In this document: piece by piece, positions 35,823-41,876 of the stretch
Position numbering within the stretch: position 1 is the first letter of the stretch
Layout: each line of letters starts with the position of its first letter
Source: Azospirillum sp.
GTDB lineage: Bacteria > Pseudomonadota > Alphaproteobacteria > CACIAM-22H2
Direction: 5' to 3'
Assembly (NCBI GenBank): GCA_020249045.1
Contig: JADCGK010000010.1
Coordinates: 1-44,957, forward strand
Length of the DNA stretch: 44,957 nucleotides
Position numbers and translations under genes: made by a program
The notes under the pieces: generated by a model
The model's input: only the letters and a program-made list of their open reading frames with translations
Database searches by the model: none
Told to the model about the DNA's origin: nothing

Positions 35823-38225
35823 TTGACGGCAACGGTTCCGGCGGCCGCACGCGCGGTCATCGTCGGCGGCGGCATCGCGGGATGCTCGGTCGCCTATCAC
35901 CTGACAAAGCTCGGCTGGACGGATGTGGTGCTGCTCGAACGCGCCCGGTTGACCGCCGGCACGACGTGGCACGCGGCGGGGCTGGTGGGGGCCATGCGGC
36001 CCAACCGGGCACTGACGGCGATGAGCAAGTACGGCATCGATTTGTATTCGAAGCTGGAAGCGGAAACCGGTCAGGCGACGGGCTGGAAGAATTGCGGGTC
36101 GGTCAACGTCGCACGCACGCCCGAGCGCGTCGTCGCCTTCAAGCGCCAGGTGGCGCTCGCCAAAGGCTTCGGCGTGGACATCCAAGAGATCTCGCCCGCC
36201 GAGGCAGGCAAGCTCTGGCCCTTGATGCGCACGGACGATCTGCAAGGTGCGATTTGGCTACCGGGCGACGGCAAGGCCAATCCGGCGGATCTGTGCATGG
36301 CGCTGGCCAAGGGTGCGCGTATGGGCGGGGCCAAATTGTTCGAAGGGGTGGGCGTCACCGACTTCGAGCGCGCCAACGGCGCCATTTCGGCGGTAATGAC
36401 CGATCAGGGCCGGATCGCGGCCGATGTCGTCGTACTCGCTTGCGGGCAATGGACGCGCCAAGTCGCGGCGCAACTCGGGGTCGCCGTGCCGCTGCATTCG
36501 GCCGAGCATTTCTACATCGTCACCAAAAAAATCGACGGCGTGACGCCCGACCTGCCGGTCATGCGCGATCCGGATGGTTACATCTATTACAAGGAGGAGG
36601 TTGGCGGTCTCGTGATGGGCGGGTTCGAGCCCGTCGCCAAGCCCTGGGGCATGGACGGCATCCCCGAGGATTTCGCCTTCCGGCTGCTGCCCGAGGACTG
36701 GGACCAGTTCCAAATCCTGATGGAGAACGCGCTGCACCGGACCCCGTGTCTGGAGACGGCCGAAGTTCGCCAGCTGCTGAACGGGCCCGAGAGCTTCACC
36801 CCCGACGGGAACTTCATTCTGGGCGAGGCGCCCGCGCTGCGCGGGCTTTACGTGTGCGCCGGCTTCAATTCCGCGGGCATCGCCAATGCGGGTGGGGCGG
36901 GACGTTTGACCGCCGAATGGATCGCGGGCGGCGAAGCGCCGATGGATTTGGCCGACGTCGACATCCGCCGCTTCGCGGATTTCCAGGCCAACGGGCGCTT
37001 CTTGCGCGAACGCACGGTGGAAAGCCTGGGCCTGCATTACGTGATGCGTTGGCCGCGTATGGAATTGGAGAGCGCGCGGCCCTTGCGCCGCTCCCCGCTT
37101 TACGACCGTCTCGCCGCGAACGGCGCGCGCTTCGGCTCGAAGATGGGTTGGGAGCGTGCGAACTTCTTCGCGCCCGCCGACGCCAAGCTCGCCTATGGCT
37201 GGGCGCCCGCGTGGCTGCCCCACGCACAAGCCGAGCAGCACGCCGCGCGCACGGGTGTGGCCGTCGTCGATCAGGCGAGCTTCGCCAAGATCCTCGTCCA
37301 GGGCCGCGATTCGTGCGCCTTCCTGCAACGGCTGTGCGCGAACGATGTCGACGTGGCGCCCGGCCGCTCGGTCTACACGGCGCTGCTGAACTCGCGCGGC
37401 GGCTTCGAAAGCGACGTGACCATCGCCAGGCTGGCGGAGGACAAGTTCCTCTACATCACCGGCTCGGCCCAACTCACCCGTGATCTCGATTGGCTCGGCC
37501 GGCATATCGGCGATTCCTTCGTCACGCTGACCGACGCCACCGTCACCTGGACGACGCTGTCGCTGATCGGCCCCGGCGCCATGCCGCTGCTCGGCAAGTT
37601 GTCGCCCAATCTCGCGCCGCTGGCGCCGGGCGAAGTGCGTACGCTGGATGCCGGGTATGCGCGCGTGCTCGCCTCGCCGATGAGTTACGTCGGCGCGCCC
37701 GGCGTGGAGATGCTGGTGCCGACCGAGTACGCCGCGGGTCTCTACGACGAATTGAAGCGCGCCGAGCCCGCGTTGCGCGATCTCGGCTACTACGCGCTTG
37801 ACGCCTTGCGCATCGAGGCCGGGCGCCGTGCCTTCGGCCCCGAATTGGGACCGGACGAAACCCCGGTCGAAGCGGGCTTGATGCACGCGGTCGCGCTCGA
37901 CAAGCCCGGCGGTTTCCTCGGCCGCGAAGCGCTGATCGCCAAGCGCGAGGCGGGTATCGCCAAGCGGCTGTGTCTGTTCGCCCTGGAGGATCCCGCCGAT
38001 TGGCTGTGGGGCGGGGAAGGCATTCTGGCCGACGGCAAGCCGGCGGGCGAGATTTCGTCGGCGGGGTGGTCGACCGTGTTGGGGCGCTGCGTCGGGCTGG
38101 GTTATGTCCGCGCCGACCGCAATTTCGAGCGGGCGGAGATGCTGTCGTGGTCCTATGCGATCGACATTGCCGGCAAGGTCGTGAAGGCCAAAGCTCTCGC
38201 CCGCGCCGCCTATCCGCCGAAATAG
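35823..38225 (+). CDS. Dimethylglycine/sarcosine dehydrogenase-like FAD enzyme with GcvT domain
   Basis: An 800-residue two-part enzyme. The N-terminal DAO oxidoreductase has the FAD motif VIVGGGIAGCSVAYHLTKLG and a TTWHAAGLVGAMRP segment that in this family often carries covalent FAD. A linker leads to an aminomethyltransferase (GcvT) domain (~420-790) that takes the released methyl onto tetrahydrofolate. This is the architecture of DMGDH and SARDH, which demethylate dimethylglycine or sarcosine. The TTG at 35823 has AGGAAGGA upstream; it would give a normal family length. Substrate choice among N-methyl amines cannot be read. Confidence 0.85.
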   Translation: MTATVPAAARAVIVGGGIAGCSVAYHLTKLGWTDVVLLERARLTAGTTWHAAGLVGAMRPNRALTAMSKYGIDLYSKLEAETGQATGWKNCGSVNVARTPERVVAFKRQVALAKGFGVDIQEISPAEAGKLWPLMRTDDLQGAIWLPGDGKANPADLCMALAKGARMGGAKLFEGVGVTDFERANGAISAVMTDQGRIAADVVVLACGQWTRQVAAQLGVAVPLHSAEHFYIVTKKIDGVTPDLPVMRDPDGYIYYKEEVGGLVMGGFEPVAKPWGMDGIPEDFAFRLLPEDWDQFQILMENALHRTPCLETAEVRQLLNGPESFTPDGNFILGEAPALRGLYVCAGFNSAGIANAGGAGRLTAEWIAGGEAPMDLADVDIRRFADFQANGRFLRERTVESLGLHYVMRWPRMELESARPLRRSPLYDRLAANGARFGSKMGWERANFFAPADAKLAYGWAPAWLPHAQAEQHAARTGVAVVDQASFAKILVQGRDSCAFLQRLCANDVDVAPGRSVYTALLNSRGGFESDVTIARLAEDKFLYITGSAQLTRDLDWLGRHIGDSFVTLTDATVTWTTLSLIGPGAMPLLGKLSPNLAPLAPGEVRTLDAGYARVLASPMSYVGAPGVEMLVPTEYAAGLYDELKRAEPALRDLGYYALDALRIEAGRRAFGPELGPDETPVEAGLMHAVALDKPGGFLGREALIAKREAGIAKRLCLFALEDPADWLWGGEGILADGKPAGEISSAGWSTVLGRCVGLGYVRADRNFERAEMLSWSYAIDIAGKVVKAKALARAAYPPK

Positions 38226-38229
38226 CGGC

Positions 38230-38658
38230 TTAGCGCCGGTCCCATGTGCCGGTCCGTCGGCCTGTGGGGTCGCGGAACACAAGGTCGCCGTTCGCCTCCC
38301 GCTCGATCGTGCCGATCCGCCGGCCGGCGGCATCGCGCACGACGTAGCCCGCGCGCCCGTCGCTTTCATACGTTTCGATCCGCCGGCCGGTCGCGTCGCG
38401 CCGGACATAGCCGCCGCGCTCGTCCGATTCCAACGTGCCCAAGCGCCGCCCGGTTTCGTCGCGTTCGACGAAGCCGCCGCGCCGGTCGCTTTCCAGCGTG
38501 CCTGCGCGCCGGCCGGTCGCATCGCGTTGCACGAAGCCGCCTTGGCCGTCGCTTTCGAAGGTGCCGGTCCGGCGGCCCGTCGGATCGCGCTGGATGAAGT
38601 CCTGCGCGACGGCCGGAGCCGCGCACGCCAGGACGATCGTCAAAGCAAGGATACGCAT
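38230..38658 (-). CDS. Secreted protein made of 21-residue tandem repeats
   Basis: A 142-residue protein: signal peptide MRILALTIVLACAAPAVAQ, then five complete 21-residue repeats and one partial repeat to the end. The repeat is roughly (F/Y)VxRDATGRRxGTLESDxxGG, starting with FIQRDPTGRRTGTFESDGQ. The GRRxGT core is nearly invariant. I do not recognise the family; the short Gly-rich turns and alternating charged strands suggest a beta-solenoid or beta-hairpin repeat exposed in the periplasm or secreted. It is divergent from an alginate-lyase-family gene, so the two may be regulated together. The ATG 38658 was chosen for the signal peptide. Confidence 0.8.
   Translation of the reverse strand: MRILALTIVLACAAPAVAQDFIQRDPTGRRTGTFESDGQGGFVQRDATGRRAGTLESDRRGGFVERDETGRRLGTLESDERGGYVRRDATGRRIETYESDGRAGYVVRDAAGRRIGTIEREANGDLVFRDPTGRRTGTWDRR
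38233..38598 (-). repeat. Tandem 63-base coding repeat, 5.8 copies
   Basis: Five full 63-base units (38284-38598) and one partial unit encode the 21-residue repeats of the secreted protein. The units are diverged at both DNA and protein level (for example TLESDRRGG against TYESDGRAG and TIEREANGD), so the array is old rather than freshly amplified; divergence is greatest toward the C-terminus. Confidence 0.85.
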
Positions 38659-38724
38659 GTCGGGAGAACGTGCGGCCGCGCGGGCGCATTCCCCAATCCG
38701 GCCCCGACCGTCAAAGTCGGTGTC

Positions 38725-39816
38725 ATGACTTTGGCGCGACGCGATTTTCTGGCGGGACTTGGGATGGCGGGGGCGGTGGGGGCCTGTGCGGCCCCACCGG
38801 CCATATCCCCCGCGCCCTTGGTCAATCCCTACGATGCGGCGGGTCTGCGCGCGCGCAAAGGCCGGCGTGCGGCGGCCAACGCGGCTTGCACACCGGCACC
38901 GGCGCCGGGACGCGATCTGATCGTGCCGCAATTCTATACCGATCCGCCGGTGTTCAGCCGGATCGACCCCGTCCGCTTGGCGGCGCGCGACGCGGCCGTA
39001 TTGCCGCTGCAAACGCTCGTACGCGGTACGACCGACGCAGCCGACCGATGGGCCGCATCGGCGCCGGTCGATGGCCGGTTCGCCGCGTGCGCGGCGGCCT
39101 CGCTCGACGCGGCTGCGCGCGCGGATGCTTTTCTGGGTCGCGTCGATCCCCAAGGCGGCTACGAACGCAAATGGACATGGTGCGGTCTTGCGCTCGCGCA
39201 TCTGAAGCTCGTCCAAGCGCCCGAGTACGATGCCGCCGCCCAAGCGCGCGTGGCCGCGTGGCTGACGCGCGGCTTCGGCGCGATGCGCGGGACCTACGAC
39301 CGGCCGCCGGGCGGAACGCCGTCCACGCAACTCAACAATCACATGACGTGGGCCGGGTTGACGGCGATGGCCATCGGCCTGGCCGCCGGGAATCTCGACG
39401 CCTGGAATTGGGGTCTCGCACGCATGGAGCGCACCCTCGCGCAAGTCGACGCGGCCGGCTTCCTGCCGCAGGAGGTGCTGCGTGGGTCAAAAGCGTGGCA
39501 CTACCACGTCTTCGCGATGGGGCCGCTGGCGTTGGGCGCCGTGCTCGCCCGCGCCAACGGGATCGAATTGGCCGACGACCGGTTCCATCGCGTTGCCCGA
39601 CGCACGCTCGAAGGCTACGACAGCACCGCCGCCTTCGCCGCGCGCGCGGGTGCCGCGCAAGTTCCCTTCGGCGAGCGTCCGGACGTCGGTTGGCTCGAAA
39701 TCTACGCGGGCGCCTTCGGCGTCGAGGCCGCATTGCTTCCGTTACGCGGGCGCCGCCCGCAGCGCCAGCCGTGGCTCGGCGGGGACCTCACGCTTTGGCA
39801 CGCGCGCGACGTCTGA
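38725..39816 (+). CDS. Alginate-lyase-family (PF05426-type) exported protein
   Basis: A 363-residue alpha/alpha-toroid lyase. The N-terminus (MTLARRDFLAGLGMAGAVGAC) is a Tat-type RRDFL signal with a possible lipobox ending at Cys21. The lyase core is visible: NNH at 204-206, WGLARMERTLAQVDAAGFLP, and the catalytic RGSKAWHYHVFAMGPLAL with HYH at 259-261. This is the pattern of AlgL-type mannuronate lyases, which cleave polysaccharide uronates by beta-elimination. No alginate synthesis gene (alg8, algD, algG) is nearby, so the polymer may be another acidic glycan. It is divergent from the repeat protein. Confidence 0.82.
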   Translation: MTLARRDFLAGLGMAGAVGACAAPPAISPAPLVNPYDAAGLRARKGRRAAANAACTPAPAPGRDLIVPQFYTDPPVFSRIDPVRLAARDAAVLPLQTLVRGTTDAADRWAASAPVDGRFAACAAASLDAAARADAFLGRVDPQGGYERKWTWCGLALAHLKLVQAPEYDAAAQARVAAWLTRGFGAMRGTYDRPPGGTPSTQLNNHMTWAGLTAMAIGLAAGNLDAWNWGLARMERTLAQVDAAGFLPQEVLRGSKAWHYHVFAMGPLALGAVLARANGIELADDRFHRVARRTLEGYDSTAAFAARAGAAQVPFGERPDVGWLEIYAGAFGVEAALLPLRGRRPQRQPWLGGDLTLWHARDV

Positions 39817-39820
39817 TCCG

Positions 39821-40876
39821 TCAGCCGCGCGGGCGCAGATGTTCGGCGAATTGCCGGGCGCATTCGGCCCAGGAATAGTCGCGCGCGTGGGCGAGGGCGC
39901 GCTCGCGCGGGATTTCCAGCGCCGCAAGGCACGCCGCGCGCAAATCCTCGCGCATCGCGCCGCCGGAAAGCGCTTCGGGCCGGTCGCCGAGCACGTCGAG
40001 CGGTCCGGTCACCGGATAGGCCGCAACCGGCGTGCCGCAGGCCATCGCCTCGAGCAGCACGAGGCCGAACGTGTCGGTCTTCGACGGGAATACGAACACA
40101 TCCGCCGCAGCGTAGACTTGCGCGAGTTCGGCCTGCTGGAGGACTCCCAGATACGAAACCTCCGGATACTTGGCGCGCAAGCCCGCCAAAGCCGGGCCCT
40201 CGCCGACGACCCATTTCGAGCCGGGCAGGTCGAGCGCCAGAAACGCCTCGACGTTCTTTTCGACCGCGACGCGGCCGACATAGACGAAGATCGGCGGCTT
40301 GGTGCCCAGCTTGTCGCGCGGGCCGGGTTTGAAGATCTCGAGATCGACGCCGCGCGTCCACAGCACGACGTTGCGGAAGCCCCAGGATTCGAGGTCGTTC
40401 TTGACCGTGGGCGTGGGCACCATCACGCGGCTGGCCGGGCCATGGAAGCGGCGCAGCACGGCGTAGCTCCACGACAGCGGCGCCGATACGCGCGCGTTCA
40501 CGTATTCGGGGAAGCGGGTGTGATACGCGGTCGTGAACGGCAGGCCGCGCTTGAGGCAGGCTTTGCGCGCGGCCCAACCGAGCGGCCCTTCCGTCGCGAT
40601 GTGCACGGCATCGGCGGCGAAGGCGTCGATCAACCCGCCGACCCGACCCGGCCCGGCGAGCGACAGGCGGATTTCGGGGTAGGTCGGACAGGGGAACGTC
40701 GTGAAGCGGTCGGGCGCGATCAATTCGACCGTATGGCCCGCGCGTTCCAATTCGCGCATCGTTTCGGTCAGGGTCCGCACGACACCGTTGACCTGCGGGC
40801 GCCACGCGTCGGTCACGATGGCCACGCGCAAGGCGCGCGCGGCGGCTTCGATCGGACGGGCCAGGACGGCGGTCAT
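39821..40876 (-). CDS. agt: Agt-type glycosyltransferase (GT4) for glycolipids
   Basis: A 351-residue GT-B transferase. The N-terminal half contains VAIVTDAWRPQVNGVVRTL, APDRFTTFPCPTYPEIRL and HIATEGPLGWAARKACLKRG, typical of the Agt glycosyltransferases that place sugars on diacylglycerol. The donor-binding EX7E motif is present as TDTFGLVLLEA, with the first Glu replaced by Asp268 and Glu276 kept. Its ATG overlaps the plcP stop (ATGA), which is the known plcP-agt pairing used to replace phospholipids with glycolipids when phosphate is scarce. The sugar donor (Glc or GlcA) is not predictable. Confidence 0.82.
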   Translation of the reverse strand: MTAVLARPIEAAARALRVAIVTDAWRPQVNGVVRTLTETMRELERAGHTVELIAPDRFTTFPCPTYPEIRLSLAGPGRVGGLIDAFAADAVHIATEGPLGWAARKACLKRGLPFTTAYHTRFPEYVNARVSAPLSWSYAVLRRFHGPASRVMVPTPTVKNDLESWGFRNVVLWTRGVDLEIFKPGPRDKLGTKPPIFVYVGRVAVEKNVEAFLALDLPGSKWVVGEGPALAGLRAKYPEVSYLGVLQQAELAQVYAAADVFVFPSKTDTFGLVLLEAMACGTPVAAYPVTGPLDVLGDRPEALSGGAMREDLRAACLAALEIPRERALAHARDYSWAECARQFAEHLRPRG

Positions 40877-41748
40877 CGCGCGGCACCGACGGGGGCGGCC
40901 AGCATGTCAAGACCGCGCGCGCGCGCCCATTCGATCACGCGGAACGTCCCGTCCCGGTCCTCGACCAGCGCCGTGCAGCTTTCGACCCAATCGCCGTCGT
41001 TCATGTAGACGATCCCCCCGATATCGCGGATTTCCGCCTTGTGGATGTGGCCGCATACGACGCCGTCGAAGCCGCGCCGGCGCGCTTCCGCGGCCACCGC
41101 CTCCTCGAAATCGACGATGTATTTGACCGCGTTCTTGACCTTGTGTTTGAGCCATGCCGACAGCGACCAATACGGCAGGCCGAGCACGCGGCGCGCGCGG
41201 TTGAACCATTCGTTGGTCCACAGCGCGAAGGCGTAGGCGTGATCGCCCAGGAAGGCGAGCCAGCGCGCGTAGCGCACGACGCCGTCGAACGCGTCGCCGT
41301 GGATCACCAAATACCGCCGGCCGTCGGCGGCGACATGCACCGCCTCGCCGGTGACCAGGATGCCGCCGAAGTGATGGTCGAGATAGTCGCGCAGCGCCTC
41401 GTCGTGATTGCCGGGCACGTAGATCACGTCCGTCCCTTTGCGCGCCTTGCGCAGAACCTTTTGGACGACATCGTTATGCGCTTGCGGCCAATACCACCCG
41501 CGCTTGAGCCGCCAGCCATCGACGATGTCGCCCACGAGATAAAGCCGGTCGGATTCGTTCTCGCGCAGGAAGTCGAGCAGGAAATCGGCCTTGCAGCCGG
41601 CCGTGCCCAGATGGATGTCCGACAGGAAGATCGCCCGCCAGCGCGCGGTCCCGTCGTCCGGGCCGCCGCCGCCCGCGAGGCCGTCCGGCGCGCGCGCGAT
41701 GGCGTGCGTCGCGGCGTTGTCCACATGCTTTTCCACCGGTCCGGACAT
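40873..41748 (-). CDS. plcP: PlcP-type metallophosphoesterase (phospholipase C)
   Basis: A 291-residue calcineurin-like phosphoesterase. Metal ligands are DIHLG (D44, H46), GDIVDGW (D74), GNHDE (N114, H115), HGD (H150) and GHIHKAE. The intervening WPQAHNDVVQKVLRKARKGT and FLGDHAYAFALWTNEW resemble PlcP, which cleaves phosphatidylcholine and related phospholipids to diacylglycerol in phosphate-limited alphaproteobacteria. LpxH-type UDP-diacylglucosamine hydrolase is the nearest alternative; coupling to the Agt glycosyltransferase favours PlcP. Start 41748 (MSGPVEKH) is chosen because of the GAGAGG Shine-Dalgarno sequence. Confidence 0.8.
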   Translation of the reverse strand: MSGPVEKHVDNAATHAIARAPDGLAGGGGPDDGTARWRAIFLSDIHLGTAGCKADFLLDFLRENESDRLYLVGDIVDGWRLKRGWYWPQAHNDVVQKVLRKARKGTDVIYVPGNHDEALRDYLDHHFGGILVTGEAVHVAADGRRYLVIHGDAFDGVVRYARWLAFLGDHAYAFALWTNEWFNRARRVLGLPYWSLSAWLKHKVKNAVKYIVDFEEAVAAEARRRGFDGVVCGHIHKAEIRDIGGIVYMNDGDWVESCTALVEDRDGTFRVIEWARARGLDMLAAPVGAAR

Positions 41749-41786
41749 CCCGACCTCTCTTGCCGACGGGCGATTTCTTTTGCCGG

Positions 41787-41792
41787 TATAAT
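41787..41792 (+). promoter_or_regulatory. TATAAT box in the plcP/lipid-kinase gap
   Basis: A perfect TATAAT lies in the 121-base divergent gap between plcP and the lipid kinase, but no -35 is correctly spaced (TTGCCG is 21 bases upstream). The AT-rich sequence could serve as the -10 of either gene, since its reverse reads ATTATA. Confidence 0.3.
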
Positions 41793-41858
41793 GGCTTCGT
41801 GGTAGTCGTTTTAAGTGAATCTTCCGTGGCATATGCAATTAATGGAAGCATCTCCGAA

Positions 41859-41876
41859 CGGTCATACGAATGTCAT
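41859..41876 (+). promoter_or_regulatory. Pho-box-like direct repeat at the lipid-kinase start
   Basis: CGGTCATACGAATGTCAT contains two copies of GTCAT exactly 11 bases apart and matches the Pho-box consensus at about 14 of 18 positions. It overlaps the kinase start codon, so as a PhoB site it would more likely block than activate the kinase; plcP is on the other side, 111 bases away and in reverse orientation. The match could be accidental. Confidence 0.3.

Follow-up and report, generated by a model that had tools for sequence, protein, structure and literature searches.

A small, predicted exported 21-residue-repeat protein with distant YD/RHS-like features in Tagaea, and the PL5-type lyase gene beside it

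Our analysis of a 44,957-nucleotide stretch of DNA (the window) suggests that a 142-residue repeat protein encoded there, here called REP, is a small, free-standing, exported envelope protein made of YD/RHS-like beta repeats, which would act independently of the neighbouring lyase and would most likely bind an acidic polymer or head group; we favour this reading, with a confidence that stops a little short of even. REP and the lyase are both real genes; since related species keep REP without the lyase, an obligate partnership is improbable. The source genome belongs to Tagaea (Alphaproteobacteria), and Tagaea sp. CACIAM 22H2 (G010) has a closely related locus.

The repeat gene and its parts are as follows.
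38230–38658, minus strand: REP, predicted exported repeat protein of 142 aa (open reading frame and translation; orthologs in 7 other Tagaea species; purifying selection where tested)
38605–38658, minus strand: putative REP signal peptide, residues 1–18, cleaved between AVA and QDF (read by eye from the sequence; relatives retain the hydrophobic start as well as the AxA site)
38233–38601, minus strand: six 21-residue units, residues 20–142, with the consensus [GR]-[YFL]-[VI]-x-R-D-x-x-G-R-R-x-G-T-[IL]-E (core spacing, TRF, AlphaFold2)

The REP reading frame runs from an ATG at 38658 to a stop at 38230, and its predicted signal peptide, identified by eye, is MRILALTIVLACAAPAVA, followed by QDF; REP would be exported through this segment. 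RD..GRR cores start at residues 24, 45, 66, 87, 108, and 129, defining six units with a spacing of exactly 21 residues and the unit core RDxxGRRxGT. Self-identity at an offset of 21 amounts to 65 residues, whereas none of 2000 shuffles exceeded 25, and TRF picks up the DNA array independently (period 63, 4.6 copies, 73% matches). These results confirm the original prediction of a 142-residue protein with 21-residue units after a signal peptide; the GRRxGT core, described there as near-invariant, is exact in five of the six units and reads GRRIET in the fourth. Arginine makes up 21% of the protein, but acidic residues come close to offsetting it and leave a net charge of no more than about +3, which speaks against the favoured reading. 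Ortholog pairs differ mostly at third codon positions, with dN/dS of about 0.08–0.17; the REP gene is therefore coding and conserved, and is under purifying selection in relatives.

The AlphaFold2 model of REP, obtained with three natural sequences, has a pLDDT of 82.7 and a pTM of 0.73, and contains twelve strands, two antiparallel strands per unit. The model upholds the beta structure that had been anticipated, and replaces the anticipated beta-solenoid with an antiparallel meander forming a single sheet. In the structure comparison, generic folds of the sheet or barrel kind score best (1zxu at Z 9.7, LolA-like folds at Z 5–6), and RHS effectors and teneurins appear at Z 4–5 among other sheet folds. 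The LURP/tubby-like and LolA folds that head the list were judged to be generic curved sheets without sequence support, and a sequence search of the PDB with REP gave chance-level matches only (E 0.46–0.48). Fold comparison alone does not decide RHS kinship or the presence of an RHS-type beta-sheet spiral.

On the favoured reading, each 21-residue unit would contribute two antiparallel strands, one short and the other longer, connected by the D-x-x-G turn, and three to six units would form one curved, arginine-rich antiparallel sheet. REP would work in the cell envelope, where its repeated arginine strand would bind a polymer or head group carrying negative charge; the ligand is probably an acidic glycan or a lipid head group or glycolipid, and an envelope role is likewise probable. 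The reach of the sheet would be set by unit number, which is six in the window and three in sister species. We regard as very unlikely an alternative in which REP assembles with itself into a fibre of the surface or matrix, in the manner of curli subunits, and has no specific ligand: a short exported protein consisting almost only of 21-residue strand-turn-strand units in variable copy number would suit such a role, but the strong charge and high arginine content are unlike curli repeats, which are Asn/Gln-rich, and AlphaFold2 models REP as one antiparallel sheet.

Most of what is known about YD/RHS repeats comes from toxin shells and adhesion receptors of very large size. Exported proteins of 80–140 residues containing little but such repeats would be the simplest YD/RHS architecture, and would offer an easy model for structure and ligand binding. 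What the evidence supports best for REP is distant kinship with YD/RHS repeats, and we do not claim formal membership. In particular, REP shares with YD/RHS repeats (TIGR01643, PF05593) tandem units with a period of about 21 residues and a conserved D-x-x-G-R core, which is a trait of the class, together with predicted export and beta-hairpin units. It differs from them in having only 3–6 units, no cocoon, no toxin or other domain, and R replacing the Y of YD, and the window REP falls below all YD/RHS thresholds.

Specifically, the window REP has no match among the family models searched (Pfam and NCBIfam, including YD_repeat_2x and RHS_repeat), whereas relatives in G003, G004, and G002 score 18.3, 19.2, and 18.8 bits against YD_repeat_2x (TIGR01643), above its cut-off of 15.8 bits. 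Relatives reach 19.1–20.9 bits against RHS_repeat (PF05593), with E of about 0.0005–0.002, and thus stay below the gathering cut-off of 22 bits. At E≤10, RHS_repeat matches six of eight REP family members, with a best E of 0.00049. Ten permuted copies, in which unit positions were shuffled alike with composition and period kept, give no RHS match, so residue order matters. The YD/RHS match of the family thus appears weak but order-specific; in whole-genome scans with the YD model, REP loci score about equal to a few unrelated frames. YD repeats are described as generally carbohydrate-binding in a passage of PMC6360184, which also cites a report of heparin binding by teneurin-1. By analogy, carbohydrate binding may serve as a lead for REP function, not as a test of it.

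The original prediction had paired REP with the divergently transcribed lyase. The features that bear on this pairing are as follows.
38659–38724, no strand: intergenic stretch of 66 bases between the REP and lyase start codons (sequence; promoter scan)
38725–39816, plus strand: predicted PL5-type polysaccharide lyase with Tat signal, 363 aa (Pfam PF05426, E 1.9e-24; TAT model; closest structures Smlt1473 and AlgL-type lyases)
39337–39342, plus strand: predicted catalytic Asn205-His206 of the lyase, corresponding to N167-H168 of Smlt1473 (alignment; invariant in 11 lyases; role from PMC8511899)
39481–39504, plus strand: Arg253 to Tyr260 of the lyase, Tyr260 corresponding to catalytic Y222 of Smlt1473 (alignment; invariant in 11 lyases)

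The lyase is predicted to be an acidic-polysaccharide lyase and to be catalytically complete. It scores 87 bits against the Pfam model Alginate_lyase (cut-off 22.2) and 20.5 bits against the Tat signal model (cut-off 16.7). Its alignment with Smlt1473 covers lyase residues 56–359 (E 2.5e-29), and N205, H206, R253, and Y260, the full PL5 catalytic set, are invariant across the 11 lyases compared. The window lyase thus shares the Asn-His pair, Arg, and Tyr with PL5 lyases, the nearest being Smlt1473 of Stenotrophomonas maltophilia (PDB 7fhu–7fi2), in which N167, H168, and Y222 have a catalytic role (PMC8511899), and AlgL-type enzymes (4ozv, 7sa8). In contrast to mannuronate-specific lyases, it falls below the NCBIfam equivalog cut-offs (at most 96.9 bits against the AlgL models, PRK00325 equivalogs, cut-off 429), and no alginate genes adjoin it; against the general polysaccharide lyase model of NCBIfam it scores 158.3, below the cut-off of 366. 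The label 'alginate lyase' should not be read as the substrate of the enzyme, because Smlt1473 cuts alginate, glucuronan, and hyaluronan in a pH-dependent manner (PMC8511899). A search of the source genome for AlgX (PF16822), the sole alg marker searched, gave no match at E≤0.001, and an alginate biosynthesis context was set aside on this one marker. In one relative (G018:C4:1565-2624), the PL5 lyase is in two pieces in different frames, reflecting a pseudogene or an assembly error.

Synteny indicates that the constant neighbour of REP in Tagaea is a different set of genes, of which the first is the glycosyltransferase.
39821–40876, minus strand: GT4 glycosyltransferase, possibly an agt-type lipid glycosyltransferase (Pfam; NCBIfam lipid-glycosyltransferase models below cut-off; synteny)
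40873–41838, minus strand: calcineurin-like phosphoesterase, possibly plcP-type, with a 4-base overlap with the GT4 gene; the coordinates are those of the open reading frame as listed, and the true start is probably further in (Pfam; gene order as in plcP-agt, PMC4796936, PMC9239053)
41870–42757, plus strand: YegS/DAGK-type lipid kinase (Pfam; TIGR00147 above cut-off)

A profile of the repeat protein was searched over 11 Tagaea genomes, all of one genus, and found REP in 8 of the 11 species and in all seven high-quality genomes. REP lies beside the GT4/phosphoesterase/lipid kinase block, on the same strand as GT4, in 8/8 REP-carrying species. Four species of one clade (G000, which is the window genome, G001, G006, and G010) have the lyase between REP and GT4 on the opposite strand. 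In the other clade (G002, G003, G004, and G005), no lyase is present there and REP directly follows GT4 on the same strand after a short gap. A whole-genome search at E≤1e-10 found no lyase in G002, G003, and G005 (94–98% complete genomes), and found one in G004, on an unrelated contig; that lyase sits amid housekeeping genes (open reading frame translations, named by eye), which give no clue to its substrate. In a tree of the block, the two species groups split with full support, so the adjacency of REP and the lyase goes back to a single clade and is worth about one event rather than repeated evidence.

In the original prediction, REP would hold an acidic polysaccharide that the divergent lyase trims; a fuller version of this reading has both genes controlled from the shared 66-base region. 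The head-to-head layout in the four species of one clade, a lyase that is predicted to be exported and to have the full PL5 catalytic set, and the description of YD-type repeats as carbohydrate-binding in the passage noted above all speak for a two-gene module, and we nevertheless consider it unlikely. REP is kept at the same place without an adjoining lyase in four species, three of which lack such a lyase altogether at the threshold given, and the adjacency amounts to about one event. Linkage across genomes, proposed as a check on the pairing, was not recovered outside Tagaea: no lyase lies within about 5–8 kb of REP relatives from other families. Absence of the repeats from relatives that keep the lyase, which had been named as contrary evidence, was found for more distant lyases, since lyase relatives of other genera are encoded in genomes where no repeat gene could be detected. 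Synteny thus rules out an obligate module as a general rule, and the description of the lyase as the only divergent partner of REP, 66 bases away (ATG at 38725 versus ATG at 38658), holds for the window genome and fails in related species. The case shows that a head-to-head gene pair which passes for a functional module in a single genome can fall apart once a dozen relatives are compared. On the favoured reading of a free-standing repeat protein, REP would need no lyase, and the lyase would be a separate PL5 enzyme that fills the gap between REP and the GT4/phosphoesterase/kinase block in one Tagaea clade only.

A promoter scan of the 66-base stretch found no sigma-70-like promoter, and a promoter of this type within it was rejected as a candidate. 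On the other side of REP, a DMGDH/sarcosine-dehydrogenase-like gene (window 35823–38225) is convergent to it; elongation factor G occupies that place in the 7 other REP-carrying Tagaea species, which points to a local rearrangement in the window species.

The block itself is possibly of plcP-agt type, judging from its gene content and order. Under phosphate limitation, the plcP-agt cluster exchanges phospholipids for glyco- and glucuronosyl-diacylglycerol (PMC4796936, PMC9239053). The window resembles it in that a metallophosphoesterase lies directly upstream of GT4 and overlaps it by four bases (Pfam, coordinates), with a lipid kinase alongside; it differs in lacking a supported Pho box and in having REP downstream, and the PlcP and Agt names are putative and come from Pfam and gene order, the NCBIfam models for the phosphoesterase and GT4 scoring below cut-off. 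If the assignment is right, it supplies a second context for REP, namely an envelope remodelled with acidic glycolipids. REP could then be an accessory of this locus, made together with GT4 in phosphate limitation and coating or stabilising membranes rich in glucuronosyl or glycosyl diacylglycerol. We hold this to be doubtful but worth weighing: the position of REP next after GT4, on the same strand and with a short gap, in the four lyase-less species, and the arrangement of the phosphoesterase, GT4, and lipid kinase as in plcP-agt (PMC4796936, PMC9239053) argue for it, but G009 has the block without REP, the naming has the basis just given, and outside Tagaea REP relatives lie away from genes of this kind. 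A Pho-box-like site with 2 mismatches is present at 41859–41876, on the lipid kinase start codon, but it is the single site found at up to 3 mismatches versus 0.84 expected, which is chance level; a Pho box in the window is not supported, a further point against the accessory reading. A similar 2-mismatch site occurs at the same place in G009.

In the four sister species without an adjacent lyase (G003, G004, G005, and G002; loci L027, L028, L030, and L031, respectively), the region between the GT4 stop and the REP start contains an inverted repeat that takes in the REP Shine-Dalgarno sequence together with the start codon. Its fold z-scores are −4.5, −2.6, −2.9, and −1.8, its stem sequence differs in G005, and it is missing from the window. 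A search of Rfam with this hairpin gave no match, and a known RNA family was set aside; translational control is possible.

Beyond the genus, REP appears to belong to a scattered, unnamed repeat-protein family in Alphaproteobacteria, undescribed as far as the libraries used show. A search with the REP profile over 385 genomes of the class turned up two more clear matches (G315 and G078) and one borderline match (G069), and the family of G315 includes three more genomes with relatives, among them G416, with five strict cores. Further relatives are found on Azospirillum plasmids and, where annotated at all, are hypothetical proteins. These RDxxGRxxGT proteins of Azospirillum plasmids and of the alphaproteobacterial family (G416, G407, G315) have, like REP, a signal peptide, 21–22-residue units, and an RDxxGR core; they differ from REP in their gene neighbourhoods, in having 2–5 recognisable units, and in being about 30–60% identical to it. 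No lyase or GT4 was found within stretches of about 5–8 kb around the relatives outside Tagaea (Azospirillum and another alphaproteobacterial family). A search for REP-like proteins in phages gave no match, and a phage origin of REP was rejected.

A broader scenario, in our estimate quite improbable, would make this unnamed alphaproteobacterial family of small exported YD-like proteins a minimal glycan- or glycolipid-binding sheet with its reach tuned by repeat number, tied to lipid remodelling in Tagaea and joined in one clade by a uronate lyase acting on the same acidic surface polymer.

In another alphaproteobacterial lineage, a locus at about 3.1–3.5 kb of G069:C26 (L066) encodes a small exported protein that has six strict YDKYGQKTGSF repeats with a 21-residue period and matches RHS_core at E 4.8e-6.
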